A stretch of DNA of 64,000 bases from Chloroflexota bacterium. GTDB taxonomy: Bacteria; Chloroflexota; Anaerolineae; Anaerolineales; Villigracilaceae. A program made the translations under genes and the position numbers. Below, in pieces: positions 3,024 through 40,903 of this stretch; position 1 is the first letter of the stretch; each line of letters starts with the position of its first letter. The notes under the pieces are model-generated. The model was not told the DNA's origin and did no database searches. It was given only the letters and a program-made list of their open reading frames with translations. Location: assembly GCA_016195815.1 (NCBI GenBank), contig JACPYX010000006.1, forward strand, positions 1-64,000, read 5' to 3'.

Positions 3024-3055
3024 TCCAAGTCGAATCAGACCCGTGCGGGCCTGTC

Positions 3056-3172
3056 ATTACCTTCTTCTATCCAGACTATACTGTCGGCCTCGGAATTGCG
3101 CCGAGTCATGCGCTTGCGCGCTCGCGGGCTGTACCGCCGATCGGGAATTGCACCCTGCCCCGAAGGTTAATA
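3056..3172 (-). promoter_or_regulatory. FMN riboswitch (RFN element)
   Basis: The minus strand carries the conserved RFN blocks in order: GGGGCAGGGTG, AATTCCCGATCGGCGGTA, AGCCCGCGAGC, a variable arm, AATTCCGAGGCCGACAGTATAGTC and TGGATAGAAGAAGG. The closing stem P1 pairs TTAACCTTC with GAAGGTAA. The element heads the three-gene ABC transporter and would switch it off when FMN is plentiful. Confidence 0.95.
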
Positions 3173-13261: not shown

Positions 13262-13410
<149 letters not shown>

Positions 13411-13412
<2 letters not shown>

Positions 13413-14595
13413 ATTCAATTATGCTCGGATTGTATGCCGCGTCAGGCGAACCGTCAAGCTGGCGGCTGAGGCGATAAAGGATCGCAAGCGACAGGATGGC
13501 AGAAAGCGAAAAGCCCAGGTTTCCATATCTTCCTAAAAGTCCAACGGATATAAATGGAATAACGTATGCGGCTGTGATGAAAAGCCAATCGACGAGCTTA
13601 TTATTCTGTCCGGCGAGAAAATAAAACGGGAGAAGCAAAAGAACAAAATCATAATTGAGAAGATATGGGCTGGCGAGTAAAGTGATAATCACGGCAAATA
13701 CCATGAGCCATGCAGGTTGTTTTAGAGTTGCGGCGCGCGTAAGACTCCACCAAATGGATAAGGCCGAAAATATGATCAGCCCAATAAAAGGCGCGGGAGC
13801 AAGGCTTGATTTGCCGCTGAAAAACCTGGCGAGGGCAACCGGCAGGCTGGCGCATAATTCGCAGGACGAAACGCCGGGATCCTGCCTGAAGGCCAGTAAT
13901 GAATGAAAGTAGTTTAGCGGCCAGGCGCGATCGGCAAAAAAACCAAACGCAAAGAGCAGCGCGCCTGCGATGAAGGTGTAAATCAGTGCGCGGCGGCTGA
14001 AGGTATCGCGTCGAAGCCAGAGATAGGCCAGCCCTGCCAGTAATATCAACGCGCCGAGATGCGGCTTGAAGGTTAGCAAGGCGGAGGCGAGCGCGGTCAG
14101 CACCGGTCTTTCTTTGCGGACAGAAAAAATCCATAATGACGCGCCGAGCAGGACCGGGAATACATATTGCCCGACGAGCAATGTTCCCAGCACGGGAATA
14201 AAGATGAAAGCAAAGAGGAAAGAAGAGAGGCGTTTTTTCGGTGACCATTCATCGGTCAGAAGCCAAATAGAGAGAAAGAGCATTAGGAGATTAAGTTCAA
14301 ACCATATTCGTGCGCCTATTTCAATGGGAAGCAGAGCCAGCGGCAAAGTAATTAACGCGTACCAGGGCGGATATGGAAATGGCAACACATAAACCTGCCC
14401 AGGCCGGACATTTGCCAGTTGTGCGATCATATTCGCCTGGCCTGCATGGTCGTAGACGGAAATGCCGTGCAGGAGTCCCAGGTTGGCCTGATAGATGATT
14501 TGAAAGTCGAGATATGGAGGAATGGGGAGAGGCAGAAGGGCAACGATAAACAGGAAGCCGAAGACAATAAACAGAGTGAGTAGAGCGTGCTTCAT
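13411..14595 (-). CDS. GT87/DUF2029-like polytopic membrane protein
   Basis: The 394-aa protein has about ten hydrophobic segments. The first extracytoplasmic loop contains PPYLDFQIIYQ, and a later one reads FPYPPWYAL, typical of GT-C-fold polyprenyl-phosphate mannosyltransferases (GT87). It probably transfers a sugar from a lipid carrier outside the membrane; substrate is unknown. The start at 14595 forms an ATGA overlap with the upstream DUF2867 gene. The last coding bases contain the promoter of the downstream cobalamin riboswitch. Confidence 0.75.
13429..13457 (-). promoter_or_regulatory. Promoter of the cobamide operon
   Basis: TTGACG at 13452-13457 and TACAAT at 13429-13434 are spaced by 17 bases on the minus strand. 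Both lie inside the 3' coding end of the glycosyltransferase gene. The predicted start is about 10-15 bases upstream of the cobalamin aptamer. Confidence 0.8.
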
Positions 14596-21007: not shown

Positions 21008-21208
21008 TCGCTTCACAATTTGGAAAGTTTTTGCCTTACAAACAATTTACGAATTTCGCATTCAGATTGTTTTTTTTTAGGAAAAGGCTTATAAACACAG
21101 TGTTCATTGTGGGTACCGCATAAACATCTAAACCGACTTATCAATTTGCAATCGCTGAAATAACAGTTTGAGTTTAGTGATGTATGTAAGGAACGAGAAA
21201 GCGCCATA
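21008..21208. other. Intergenic region before the diguanylate cyclase
   Basis: No gene, strong hairpin or riboswitch motif is seen. A run of nine T at 21069-21077 after the upstream gene could contribute to termination, but there is no clear stem. Confidence 0.4.
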
Positions 21209-22852
21209 ATGCAAATCACTGCCCATCCGTATACACTGCTGCTCTTAAGTTCTGCTCTGGTATCGGGGGTCATGGCTTTTTTGATCTGGGGAAGGCGGAC
21301 GCTGAAGGGGGCGCTTGCGCTTGCCGCGCTGATGTTCGAATTGGCTGTATGGGCCGGCGCATCTGCGATGATGTGGTCAAGCCCAATACTGGATACGCAG
21401 GTATTCTGGTTGAATGCAACCTATTTCGGGGCGCTGACAGTTCCCATAACCTTCTTTGTTTTTGCGATGCAGATCACCGATAACGACCGCTGGCTGACGA
21501 AGCGCAGCCTGCTTTTGCTTGGTATCGAGCCGCTGATTACATTTTTTGTAATTTGGACGAACCAATTCCACTATCTTTTTCACGCCAATTATAAGATGAC
21601 GTATGTTAACAATTTCCCGGAATTGTCCTGGACGCACGGCCCGTGGTTCTGGCTCAACAGCTTGTATTCTTACGCTGTAATTCTTGTCTCTATAACAGTT
21701 CTTCTGCGCGCTTTTATGCGGGCAGGGCCTTATTTCCGGATGCAGCTTGGCACGGTTTTGATCGGGGGCATCCTTCCATTGGCGGCCAATATATATGCGA
21801 TCTTTCTGCCGAACTCTTTGAAAGGCCTCGACATTACGCCGTTGTCTTTCGCTGTTTCGGGCCTGATTTTTGCCCATGCCTTATTCAGGCAGGGACTGCT
21901 GGATATTCTGCCGATCGCGCGCAGTGTGCTGATCGAAAAAATCACCGATGGCGTTTTGGTGCTGGATATGAATGGGCGGGTTCTGGATATCAACCCTGCC
22001 GCGCAGCGAGTCTTTTCCGTGAATGGATCCGTCCACGGAAAAGATATTCGGATCCTATATCCGCAATGGACCGATCTCATTGACCGGTTCTTGAAAGAAA
22101 AGGAAATGCGCTGTGAAATAAGAAGCAGGACCGATGAATCGATTTTCTACGATCTTATTGTTGCTCCACTTGTTGATAACCGCGGACGGGATAACGGACG
22201 TTTGATCACCTTCCGGGACGTCAGTGAGAAAAAACGATTTGAAACAGAACTTGAAAAAATGAATGAGCGGTTGAGATTGCAATTGCACAAGATCAGCCTT
22301 CTGCGCGATGCGTTACGCGAGCAGACCATCCGTGACCCATTGACCGGCCTCTTCAATCGGCGTTATCTAACCGAAACGCTGGAGCGCGAGTTAAGTCTGG
22401 CAAAGCGCAAAGGTTATTCGGTCAGCGTTATTATGATAGATATCGACCGATTCAAACGGGTCAACGATACGTACGGACACAAGGCGGGCGATCAGGTTCT
22501 AAAAGCGCTTGGCAAGATCATTCAGTCACGCGTTCGCAGCAGCGATATCCCATGCCGTTTCGGCGGGGAGGAGTTTGTGATCGTTATGCCTGAGACTACA
22601 GTTGAAATCGCTGTCCAACGCGCCAACCAAATCCGCTCCAAATTTCGTTCGATGAAATTCTTTAGCGGAGGAGACGCCATCATTCCGACTCTCTCGATCG
22701 GCGTCGCGGCCTTTCCGACACACGGCAATAATCTGGAAGAAATCGTACAAGGCGCCGACCAGGCGATGTATAATGCCAAAGCTTTAAGGAACACAGTTAT
22801 GGTCTACGGGGAAAAATCACTTAAACGCCATAAAGATATGATTGTCGGGTAA
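21209..22852 (+). CDS. Membrane 7TM-PAS-GGDEF diguanylate cyclase
   Basis: The 547-aa protein has an N-terminal histidine-kinase-type 7TM sensor (about residues 5-230), a PAS domain (from about 240, VLVLDMNGRVLDINPAAQRVF) and a GGDEF domain (about 375-540). The active site reads GGEEF, and RSSD sits exactly five residues upstream, matching an intact inhibitory c-di-GMP I-site. It should make c-di-GMP in response to an unknown membrane or extracellular signal. A probable c-di-GMP-I riboswitch lies 17 kb away at 39466-39556. Confidence 0.92.
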   Translation: MQITAHPYTLLLLSSALVSGVMAFLIWGRRTLKGALALAALMFELAVWAGASAMMWSSPILDTQVFWLNATYFGALTVPITFFVFAMQITDNDRWLTKRSLLLLGIEPLITFFVIWTNQFHYLFHANYKMTYVNNFPELSWTHGPWFWLNSLYSYAVILVSITVLLRAFMRAGPYFRMQLGTVLIGGILPLAANIYAIFLPNSLKGLDITPLSFAVSGLIFAHALFRQGLLDILPIARSVLIEKITDGVLVLDMNGRVLDINPAAQRVFSVNGSVHGKDIRILYPQWTDLIDRFLKEKEMRCEIRSRTDESIFYDLIVAPLVDNRGRDNGRLITFRDVSEKKRFETELEKMNERLRLQLHKISLLRDALREQTIRDPLTGLFNRRYLTETLERELSLAKRKGYSVSVIMIDIDRFKRVNDTYGHKAGDQVLKALGKIIQSRVRSSDIPCRFGGEEFVIVMPETTVEIAVQRANQIRSKFRSMKFFSGGDAIIPTLSIGVAAFPTHGNNLEEIVQGADQAMYNAKALRNTVMVYGEKSLKRHKDMIVG

Positions 22853-37322: not shown

Positions 37323-39410
37323 CTAGCGAACGATCACTGCATCCAGGGTGCCCATGGTATTAACTGGTCCGGTGAAGACCAGCTTCAGTGTGTGTTTGCC
37401 GTAAACCAATTGGCCCGGATAATCCCAGCGTTGCTGGAAGCGAAGGTCAGGTGACTGTTGATTAAGCGACCCGGCCAGCTGGTTATCTATATAGATGTCC
37501 ATGCTGCCATAACTTGGCCCCGCCGCGTACAGAACGCTGAAGGACTGACCGGTGAAGCTCAGCGTCACGGATGTGGCTTTTGTGCCAGTGTATTTGTATT
37601 TGCCTAAATAAGCCTGGCTGTTGGACACAAGCGGCCAGAATGAGGAGAACTTGAAAAAGCGATAGGTATCGTCATAGGTTGTCTCTGAAACTGGCGGTTG
37701 GGTTGTCGCTTGCGAAGTAGCTGTTGGCTGGGGTGATGTGGATGTTGCGGTGGGCAGTACCGGCGCAGGAGACGCGGTTGGGGTAGCTGTCAGAGGGATT
37801 GGCGTTGCAGTAAGAATCGGCAGAACCGGCGCGGGAGACGCGGTCGGAGTGGCCGTCAGAGGGATTGGCGTTGGGGTAAAAGTTGGCAGAACCGGCGCGG
37901 GAGACGCGGTCGGAGTAGCCGTCTGAGCGATCGGTGTTGAAGTAAAAGTCGGCAATATGGAGGACGCGGCCGCAAACTCAAAGGCTCCAATGTCAAAGCC
38001 CGCTCCTTGCGGCCGTAAATTGCCGTCAAAGTCACTTGGAATGCCGGAGTTGAATCCTTTATCTATGCACGGAGAAGCAGACTGCAGGCGAAAATTCTTA
38101 GCCGCCATATTTACGAAAAGCGGATTAAGCCCCCAAACATCGCCAGGATCTGGGGAACGCGCAGGAAGTCCGCCCGCCCTGTAAACGCAATTGTATCCCG
38201 CAGTGAGTGATGACTTTGAGATGCTGTCGGGCCAGATGGAGCCGACGCCATTCTCTTGATAGGCAAAGACGTTGTTTCGAATTTTTACGTTAGTCGTATT
38301 GGTTAAATAGATACCGGTTGAGTAAGCAAAATCAGGGTTACCCACGAAGGTATTATTTTCAAAGCGAATATCACGCGCCCCATTTATATTGGCTATCCCG
38401 TTCGTGTTAACGACGTTATTTATGAATGTCAGGTTGTATGCCCCGCCCTCCACCTGAAACGCCCTGGCTGCCACATTTAGGTTGAGCGAACTGGTTACGT
38501 TAATACAGGAATTGCCATCGAAAAGGATATCATGCCCTGCAATCTTGTCGCCTGCAAAGGTCTGAAAACAGTCCGTGTGAGAGTCGCTTATATAGTCGTT
38601 GGAAAGATTCTGAAGGCTGGCTAAACTGCAGGGTGTTCCCTGTGTGTATCCTTCAGGGCCAAACGGTATATCGTGGATCTTATTGTTCCTGAACACATGT
38701 CCGCTGCCGTGAAAAAGGATGCCGTTGGCATCCAGCCATGTCGCGCCCGCATAAGTCACGTTACACGGATTATTTTGAATGGTCTGGGAAATGTCGTTGC
38801 CCTCTACGAGGTGATTTTGTCCCATGATCTCCAGGCCGAATAAACCGTTTCGATATAGCACGTTGTTTTTTACAATGCAGTCATGCGTCGCAGATGGATT
38901 GGCAGGCAATCCCTGAAGACTGATCCCGCCCATCGTGCTGTATTGAACGGTGTTGTTTTCAATGTCGCACCAGCCGCCCTTATTGACAAGTATCCCAACC
39001 GCTAAATCAGCCAATGTAGTGACAGTAAAACCTTTGATGGTAACGTAGTCTGCAGAAACCACAAAGCCTTGCATATTCACAGTCCCTTGTGCTTGCAAGA
39101 CCACAGCGCGATTGACCGTAACTCTCTCGGCATAATTTCCAGCCAGGACTATCACTGTATCTCCTGCCGCCGCCGTGTTGACCGCCTTTTGAATAGTCTT
39201 AAAGGGAGCTGAAGATGTGCCTGGATTAGCGTCATTGCCGGTTGCAGACACGTAATAGATTGTCTGCGCAGCCAGGGCAGCTTGACTCTGCGCCCTCGCT
39301 GCAACCGGTTCGAAAGAAGCGTGCGCGCTCGTGTAGATGCCAAGTATCATTGCGAGCGCAATTGCGCTTGCAATGATGACGCTCGTTATTCGGTAAACTG
39401 TTTTAATCAT
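37323..39410 (-). CDS. Secreted parallel beta-helix surface protein
   Basis: The 695-aa protein has a signal peptide (to about residue 31-35) and a DUF1565-like opening (TIYYVSATGNDANPGTSSAPFKTIQKAV). A right-handed beta-helix of many N-rich turns follows (about 75-470), then a Thr/Pro linker built of 22-residue repeats (about 487-560), and a C-terminal beta-rich domain resembling carbohydrate-binding modules. It has no membrane anchor or sortase motif. Function is unknown: adhesin, polysaccharide binding or lyase. AAGGAG precedes the ATG. The probable c-di-GMP-I riboswitch upstream suggests it is made in response to the motile/sessile switch. Confidence 0.85.
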   Translation of the reverse strand: MIKTVYRITSVIIASAIALAMILGIYTSAHASFEPVAARAQSQAALAAQTIYYVSATGNDANPGTSSAPFKTIQKAVNTAAAGDTVIVLAGNYAERVTVNRAVVLQAQGTVNMQGFVVSADYVTIKGFTVTTLADLAVGILVNKGGWCDIENNTVQYSTMGGISLQGLPANPSATHDCIVKNNVLYRNGLFGLEIMGQNHLVEGNDISQTIQNNPCNVTYAGATWLDANGILFHGSGHVFRNNKIHDIPFGPEGYTQGTPCSLASLQNLSNDYISDSHTDCFQTFAGDKIAGHDILFDGNSCINVTSSLNLNVAARAFQVEGGAYNLTFINNVVNTNGIANINGARDIRFENNTFVGNPDFAYSTGIYLTNTTNVKIRNNVFAYQENGVGSIWPDSISKSSLTAGYNCVYRAGGLPARSPDPGDVWGLNPLFVNMAAKNFRLQSASPCIDKGFNSGIPSDFDGNLRPQGAGFDIGAFEFAAASSILPTFTSTPIAQTATPTASPAPVLPTFTPTPIPLTATPTASPAPVLPILTATPIPLTATPTASPAPVLPTATSTSPQPTATSQATTQPPVSETTYDDTYRFFKFSSFWPLVSNSQAYLGKYKYTGTKATSVTLSFTGQSFSVLYAAGPSYGSMDIYIDNQLAGSLNQQSPDLRFQQRWDYPGQLVYGKHTLKLVFTGPVNTMGTLDAVIVR
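37753..37950. repeat. 66-bp tandem repeat, three copies, in the beta-helix gene
   Basis: Units start at 37753, 37819 and 37885, each opening ggcag(a/t)accggcgc, with a truncated fourth start at 37951. The period of 66 bp keeps the frame and encodes 22-residue Ala/Thr/Pro repeats in the linker. The copies are nearly identical, so copy number may vary between strains. Confidence 0.9.
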
Positions 39411-39465
39411 TTTTTCTCCTTACTGAAAAACAAACTGATCAAGCAGACGCAAAACTGTTTTGCGA

Positions 39466-39556
39466 TCCTTTAGAAACCCGGCGGCCATTGTGGATCTACC
39501 GCTTTAGGCTAGCGGCTTGGCTTTGTCGGCTTTTGCCGAGTTTGCCCAAATTGAAT
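39466..39556 (-). promoter_or_regulatory. Probable c-di-GMP-I (GEMM) riboswitch
   Basis: Read on the minus strand, the order of GEMM-I conserved blocks is present: GGGCAAACT, a GGC-AAAA-GCC tetraloop hairpin, ACAAAGCC, then GCCTAAAGC, and finally ATGGCCGCCGGGTTTC. These match the consensus blocks GGCAAACC, GNRA hairpin, GCAAAGCC, CCTAA and ATGGxxGCCGGGTT. It lies 56 bases before the start codon of the beta-helix surface protein. Outer pairing is not fully clear by eye. Expression of a surface adhesin is a common target of this riboswitch class. Confidence 0.72.
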
Positions 39557-39815
39557 TAGATTTGTTGTTTTGGGGTTGTTGTTATTGCAACAGCTTGCGT
39601 TGCTTTTCTGCTTGAGCGGCCCACAGTATAAAAGCAAAGCCCCTCGAAATCATGAACACATCTGTAATCTAACAATTTAGAAAGGGCGCATGAAATTCGC
39701 TCGTGTATTATGAGCGCTTCCTGATTTATCCGTGACAAACACACGAACCAGGCTTATCATTAACCTTGTTTATTAGAACAATCTCATTTTCTAAAAGAAA
39801 ATTCTCCGAGGTATC
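39557..39815. other. Rest of the divergent intergenic region
   Basis: The region between the riboswitch and the DUF2721 gene holds no gene. It is A/T-rich. A TATACT-like -10 for the riboswitch transcript may lie near 39630 on the minus strand. A tttctaaaagaaa inverted repeat (39789-39801) lies just before the DUF2721 gene. Confidence 0.35.
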
Positions 39816-40271
39816 TTGACCGTCACTGAACTTATTCCTGTTTTGCAAGTTGCCATTGGCCCGGTTGTGCTGATCTCTGGTATTGGTCTGCTCATCCTTT
39901 CCATGACCAATCGTTTTGGCCGCGTGATTGATCGCGGCCGCAGCCTCGCGCGCGAACTGCCTGAGATACCGCGTCAAGATCAGATCCGCGTCAATGAGCA
40001 ATTGCGCATTCTCTCCCGTCGGGCTGAATATTTGCGGCGCGCAATTACATCCGCTTCGGTCAGCGTTTTGTCTGCGGCAGTTTTGATCATCACCCTTTTC
40101 ATCACTGCCGCACTTGGGCTGGAGGCTGCCTGGCTTATCGGAATCCTGTTCGTTGCCGCAATGGGCTTCCTCATTTTTTCGCTGGTTGCATTCCTTCAAG
40201 ACTTGAACGAATCATTGCTTGCGTTCAAGCTCGATATTGGCATGAATCCAAGAGATAAATTCATGAAATAG
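39816..40271 (+). CDS. DUF2721 membrane protein
   Basis: The 151-aa protein matches DUF2721: one membrane helix near the start (IGPVVLISGIGLLILSMTNRFGRVIDRGR, with the conserved N-R-x-x-R-x-x-D-R-x-R motif) and two more near residues 80-130. The start codon appears to be TTG with GAGGT just before it; no ATG fits. The function of the family is unknown. It is probably co-transcribed with plsY, 23 bases downstream. Confidence 0.88.
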   Translation: MTVTELIPVLQVAIGPVVLISGIGLLILSMTNRFGRVIDRGRSLARELPEIPRQDQIRVNEQLRILSRRAEYLRRAITSASVSVLSAAVLIITLFITAALGLEAAWLIGILFVAAMGFLIFSLVAFLQDLNESLLAFKLDIGMNPRDKFMK

Positions 40272-40294: not shown

Positions 40295-40903
40295 ATGATA
40301 ATTTTTTCTGCCCTTGGCTTCGCACTGCTTGGATATATCTCAGGCGCTCTTCCGTTTGCAGTTTGGGTGACGCGCCTTATCACAGGCGCAGATGTGCGTG
40401 ACTCAGGTTCAGGCCATGCAACGACAACCAACACGATTCGCCGTGCCGGATTTGGACCGGGCGTGGCGGTACTGCTTCTCGATCTGGCGAAAGGCTTTCT
40501 GCCAACTTACCTCGCGTTGAAATATTCGCCGGCAACTTTTATCGTTCCTGTGACTGCCGCATTCGTCATCATAGGTCATTGCTGGCCGGTCTTCGCACAA
40601 TTTCGCGGCGGTATGGGGCTTGCCAGCGCAGGCGGATGTCTCCTGGCCGTTTCACTGCTGGCATTCTTGACGGCTGCTGCAATCCTAATCGTGTTGACCT
40701 TGGCGATCCGCCATTCGGCGCGCGCCAGCGTCTTTACCGGGATTGCTGTCGCGCCTGTGTTGTGGTTGATGAGTCAGCGCGGGATCGAATTTTGGGTTGC
40801 AGTCGCGGTTGGCCTCGTCATCGCCTACCGTTTTCTGATTGACTGGAATCGCCAATATCGCGAACTCTGGCTTGACCGAAAAAACAGGATTGTACTTAAA
40901 TAA
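40295..40903 (+). CDS. plsY: PlsY-type acyl-phosphate:glycerol-3-phosphate acyltransferase
   Basis: PlsY starts phospholipid synthesis by acylating glycerol-3-phosphate. The 202-aa protein has about five helices and three recognisable motifs in altered form. Motif 1 is RDSGSGHATTTNTIR where SGNxGATN is usual, motif 2 is GHCWPVFAQFRGGMGLAS where GHxxPVFxxFKGGKGVAT is usual, and the C-terminal region is AYRFLIDWNRQYREL. The changes (K to M/R in motif 2) make activity or substrate uncertain, so it could be a divergent PlsY paralogue. Confidence 0.8.
   Translation: MIIFSALGFALLGYISGALPFAVWVTRLITGADVRDSGSGHATTTNTIRRAGFGPGVAVLLLDLAKGFLPTYLALKYSPATFIVPVTAAFVIIGHCWPVFAQFRGGMGLASAGGCLLAVSLLAFLTAAAILIVLTLAIRHSARASVFTGIAVAPVLWLMSQRGIEFWVAVAVGLVIAYRFLIDWNRQYRELWLDRKNRIVLK

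Follow-up and report, generated by a model that had tools for sequence, protein, structure and literature searches.

A divergent c-di-GMP-I riboswitch homologue upstream of a secreted beta-helix gene in a Chloroflexota genome

The beta-helix locus and its aptamer homologue

The window analyzed here, a stretch of 64,000 nucleotides, carries on its minus strand a gene encoding a 695-residue beta-helix protein (37323..39410). The product has a signal-peptide-like N-terminus, a right-handed beta-helix (PF13229, DUF1565), a Pro/Thr-rich linker and a C-terminal domain common to its homologues. Solved structures related by sequence give short matches only, to xylosidase and rhamnogalacturonan lyase. 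Within the start of the gene lies a near-perfect inverted repeat, TATCATTGCGAGCGCAATTGCGCTTGCAATGAT (39341..39382, plus strand). The neighboring gene, plsY (glycerol-3-phosphate acyltransferase; 40295..40903, plus strand), marks the orthologous locus in the genomes G001, G005, G011 and G033. Elsewhere in the window are an FMN riboswitch (3171..3055, minus strand, 108.3 bits), an AdoCbl riboswitch (13424..13287, minus strand, 58.2 bits) and a gene encoding a 7TM-PAS-GGDEF diguanylate cyclase (21164..22852, plus strand; GGDEF domain E 3e-49).

A divergent homologue of the c-di-GMP-I (GEMM-I) aptamer occupies 39469..39556 on the minus strand, as judged by the Rfam model RF01051 and by comparison of the core. 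In a cmscan search, the model matches at full length (39556..39469) with 40.3 bits against a gathering threshold of 35; the E-value is 2e-4 over the whole 64 kb and 1.4e-6 over a 461-base stretch. R1, a covariance model trained on 36 of the order's aptamers, this one among them, gives it 64.9 bits. Taken alone, the aptamer folds modestly better than its shuffles (z -1.3). An earlier note on this DNA had read four blocks in GEMM-I order here and proposed an RF01051 search as a check; all four blocks are found, and the score bears out the family. The note did not name the strand, which is minus, and it missed the changed core. Its description of the surroundings was accurate: the gene just downstream, whose ATG (39410..39408) lies 58 bases past the aptamer end, encodes a secreted beta-helix protein, and the cyclase combines a GGEEF motif with an RxxD I-site (RSSD, five residues before GGEEF). 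In the open-licence literature, no paper was found on c-di-GMP-I in Chloroflexi or Anaerolineae, nor on GEMM-I with A47.

Signaling by c-di-GMP is present in this genome (G000), since it holds six further c-di-GMP-I aptamers, 11 GGDEF matches and two PilZ matches; the window aptamer is the weakest of the seven. Another weak R1 match (20.3 bits; L066, 2881-2948) falls in a repetitive stretch and was dropped. In two species of the genus, three c-di-GMP-I aptamers stand in a row, with guaB upstream, ruvB downstream and a strong hairpin after them (L064, G000:C23, 1799-2057, minus strand; L073, G005:C34, 4922-5182). An A at position 20, tied to c-AMP-GMP sensing (PMC9481103), occurs in two of the three copies of G000 and, by eye, in the middle copy of G005. 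It also occurs in the upstream member of a tandem pair (L065, G000:C3, 7133-7402, minus strand) that precedes a 214-residue protein with a signal-like N-terminus. A single aptamer on the same contig (L066, 7955-8041, minus strand) is located upstream of a secreted subtilase-like protein; a terminator-like hairpin uses the aptamer's own 3' end, CTGCCGAA, as its 5' arm, an arrangement suggestive of an ON switch.

Orthologous loci and the expression platform

At least one c-di-GMP-I match occurs in 79 of 150 related genomes. The best six places found in other genomes with the beta-helix protein are G005, G001:C475, G033, G011, G017 and G102, and in three of these (G033, G011 and G017) an aptamer lies directly upstream. 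Such aptamers thus recur before secreted beta-helix or glycan-active proteins in G011, in G017 and in G033, which has two beta-helix genes with an aptamer before each. R1 finds none in the stretches examined near the beta-helix genes of G005 and G102, and the G001:C475 place ends at a contig boundary. As in the window, the beta-helix gene sits beside plsY in G011 and G033, although in a different arrangement, and there it has a full aptamer and an intrinsic terminator. The divergent arrangement of the window is found in the congeners G001 (C182) and G005 (C89), while the stretches examined around plsY in G002-G004 contain no beta-helix gene.

At the same place in G001 there is a relic of the aptamer, to which R1 gives 22.9 bits and RF01051 gives 19.0 bits, the latter below its gathering threshold of 35. 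In G005:C89, R1 finds no aptamer at the same locus (80500-84300), and a DNA search of five congeners with the leader as query found nothing. A protein search of 84,980 species genomes returned 38 relatives, with no convincing aptamer beside them (R1, best E 0.86).

The sequence that follows the window aptamer corresponds to the platform of the intact orthologues without its terminator. Directly after the aptamer is a short, perfect AT-rich hairpin (CGCAAAA-CAG-UUUUGCG; 39448..39464, minus strand) with no U-run behind it, which the terminator scan of this strand does not list. A U-rich stretch, GUUUGUUUUUC (39425..39435, minus strand), stands where G011 and G033 have the terminator tail; its counterpart in the first G033 gene (G033a) is GUUCCUUUUUCAGGUAAGGAG, and from the U-tract to the start codon G033a and the window are nearly letter-identical. 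In the window, no GC-rich stem precedes this stretch. A terminator scan of the minus strand (39300-39830) gave no terminator-like site before the window gene; in G011, G033a and G033b the same scan found one terminator-like hairpin per leader, between the aptamer and the gene. It overlooked the terminator of G017, which the sequence shows plainly: AACTACCTGG-CGCGC-CCAGGTAGTT, then T's. The orthologues' terminator has been lost from the window leader. The ribosome-binding site AAGGAG is in place (39416..39421, minus strand), and its predicted access scarcely shifts, from 0.48 free to 0.47 with the canonical aptamer enforced in a fold whose P1 register is incorrect.

Aptamer core and helices

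In Vc2 numbering, taken from the conserved-position list in PMC3764141, the window aptamer keeps G20, A48, A49, G83 and C92 and carries the changes A18U, G32A, G42A, C44A and A47C. Among 37 other aptamers, A18, C44 and A47 are present in all 37, G42 in 36 and G32 in 35. When the comparison is widened to 106 other distinct aptamers from this order, a set that leans to strong matches because the underlying listing puts the best places first, A47 occurs in 106 and C44 in 105; these counts omit the window aptamer, the relic of G001 and an incomplete match in L209. The window aptamer differs at 16 of the 41 near-invariant columns, compared with 0-7 for the 37 others and 11 for the relic. Across 301 genomes of the order, a search for core patterns lacking A47 listed 26 places; R1 matches the window aptamer alone among them.

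These positions matter for both binding and docking. According to PMC9049102, A47 is conserved in all class I aptamers and is stacked between the two ligand guanines; PMC4744006 lists G20 and C92 together with A47 as the ligand contacts of Vc2 and terms the interhelical C44-G83 pair universally conserved. The G20 and C92 contacts are present in the window aptamer. The C44-G83 pair is lost, since A44 faces the retained G83. The tetraloop reads AAAA for the GNRA-type GAAA, and an A at its first position is also found in five of 77 other aptamers. As position 20 is G and not A, the window aptamer does not belong with the c-AMP-GMP (GEMM-Ib) type. Four of the 106 aptamers have C20 with A47 and C92 intact (L215, L196, L192 and L207), which may be another pocket variant in the order; A20 is found in eight.

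The core of the G001 relic is altered differently, with U20, U23, U44, U59 and U92 and with A47 intact. A32 is common to the two, and neither has the consensus base at position 44 (A in the window, U in G001); the other core changes differ, and the damage in G001 is thus mostly independent of that in the window. A reading of the relic (U20, A47, U92) as c-di-GMP-I-UAU, an Rfam family whose letters presumably stand for positions 20/47/92, was rejected; the best model is plain c-di-GMP-I, at 19.0 bits.

With the P1 register set by pair 14-93 (PMC3764141), the window aptamer, P1 included, retains 21 of its 26 pairs, though 19 of 52 paired positions are changed; two adjacent mismatches fall in P3. 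Five pairs are held by two-sided changes. In the relic, 18 of 26 pairs stand, four of them by such changes. When substitutions away from the consensus are simulated at random, the retention of pairs seen in the window has P 0.0005-0.0017 without a transition bias, 0.03 with a bias of 4 and 0.11 with a bias of 8, as against 0.03, 0.23 and 0.46 for G001. For the double changes, P is 0.004-0.018 in the window and 0.07-0.19 in G001. In two strong copies that carry a similar number of changes, 25 and 23 of 26 pairs persist. The window helices thus appear to be under constraint, weaker than that on ordinary copies and dependent on how substitution is modeled, and the compensatory changes would fit either a recent loss or a retuning.

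Fate of the leader and comparison with known systems

The window element is probably a c-di-GMP-I riboswitch homologue whose sensing function is being lost in the genus. Descent from a riboswitch is supported by the orthologues of the beta-helix/plsY locus in G011 and G033, which hold full aptamers and terminators. An ancestral c-di-GMP-I riboswitch probably controlled the secreted beta-helix gene in the family. The 5' arm of the orthologues' terminator (CUGCCUGGC) is largely complementary to the aptamer 3' strand (GCCAGGC...), so that an antiterminator could arise in the unbound RNA. With the aptamer locked by its ligand, the terminator would be able to form and turn the gene off; the intact orthologues are thus likely transcriptional OFF switches, and the ligand would have been an OFF signal for the ancestral gene as well. 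The window lineage has lost or altered its pocket (A47C, A18U), its docking pair (C44A opposite G83), its GNRA loop and its terminator, and the beta-helix gene is most likely reached by read-through transcription at any level of c-di-GMP. The RNA would remain as a folded but deaf leader.

That such a leader could still permit expression is made plausible by the Vc1 aptamer, for which PMC4744006 reports that the A39U mutation, equivalent to a change of A47, abolished c-di-GMP sequestration and binding in vitro, and that mutation of this position did not significantly alter the protein level in vivo. The same in vivo result means that function is not decidable from sequence alone. To judge by its letters, the window aptamer looks worn out or retuned, unlike a normal working copy, and the window lineage would have lost c-di-GMP control. 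Of the earlier proposal, a c-di-GMP-I riboswitch before a secreted beta-helix gene, the family and the gene context stand; with A47 replaced by C, C44 by A, and the orthologues' terminator missing, a link between messenger level and this gene is not supported. What speaks against a decaying element is that the helices are not simply random, with most pairs kept and several compensated, and that G20, C92 and a score above the gathering threshold persist.

The same features could be read as those of a working c-di-GMP-I riboswitch that tolerates core changes and acts through translation or weak attenuation. This is unlikely, even though the five core residues are kept and the genome has the signaling components: C47 and A44 are absent from the 106 other aptamers, there is no terminator, and predicted ribosome-site access hardly responds to the aptamer fold. 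It is more doubtful still that the element is a pocket variant (20/47/92 = G/C/C) whose retained fold recognizes another cyclic dinucleotide or a similar ligand. Constraint on a covarying fold together with changes at A18, C44 and A47 would be expected of one, and there is precedent for pocket changes that alter ligand choice (PMC7266159, PMC9481103), the A20 variants that sense c-AMP-GMP being the analogy. However, the window aptamer is a singleton, alone among the 26 listed places in fitting the aptamer model; the only congener with a relic, G001, does not share the pocket; and C44-G83, a docking pair rather than a ligand contact, is lost too. Only a slim chance attaches to the related idea that a G20/C47/C92 pocket without C44 is a retuned GEMM-I, its helices kept by compensation, with a ligand other than c-di-GMP or a new helix docking. 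Chance resemblance without riboswitch descent, to which the altered core and the unremarkable folding might point, is extremely improbable given the E-value over 64 kb and is contradicted by synteny, as the gene, its neighbor and the platform sequence are the same as in orthologues with full aptamers.

The genus presents a small series of this one leader: a complete aptamer in related genera, a changed core in the window, a copy below threshold in G001 and none detected in G005. Such a series could let the loss of messenger control over a secreted protein be followed experimentally. The window aptamer also illustrates that passing a covariance-model threshold is not the same as still sensing the ligand, as here the score is reached with the most invariant ligand residue replaced.

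Compared with RF01051 as a family, the window element has the same three-helix layout, the same G20, A48, A49, G83 and C92, and the same position in the 5' leader of a secreted-protein gene; it differs in A47C, A18U, C44A with its lost pair, the AAAA loop, the P3 mismatches and the missing terminator. With the c-AMP-GMP-type GEMM-I variants (A20) it shares a pocket change on a common scaffold, except that G20 is kept and A47 and C44 are changed instead. Vc1, in the Vibrio cholerae gbpA leader, is described as a similarly weak, atypical GEMM-I before a secreted protein (PMC4744006), although it retains the equivalents of A47, C44 and G83, of which the window has only G83. A further parallel is found in the ghost aptamers of glycine riboswitches, in which, according to PMC6944388, the ligand site is lost and the helices are kept; unlike those, the window aptamer stands without an adjoining partner aptamer.
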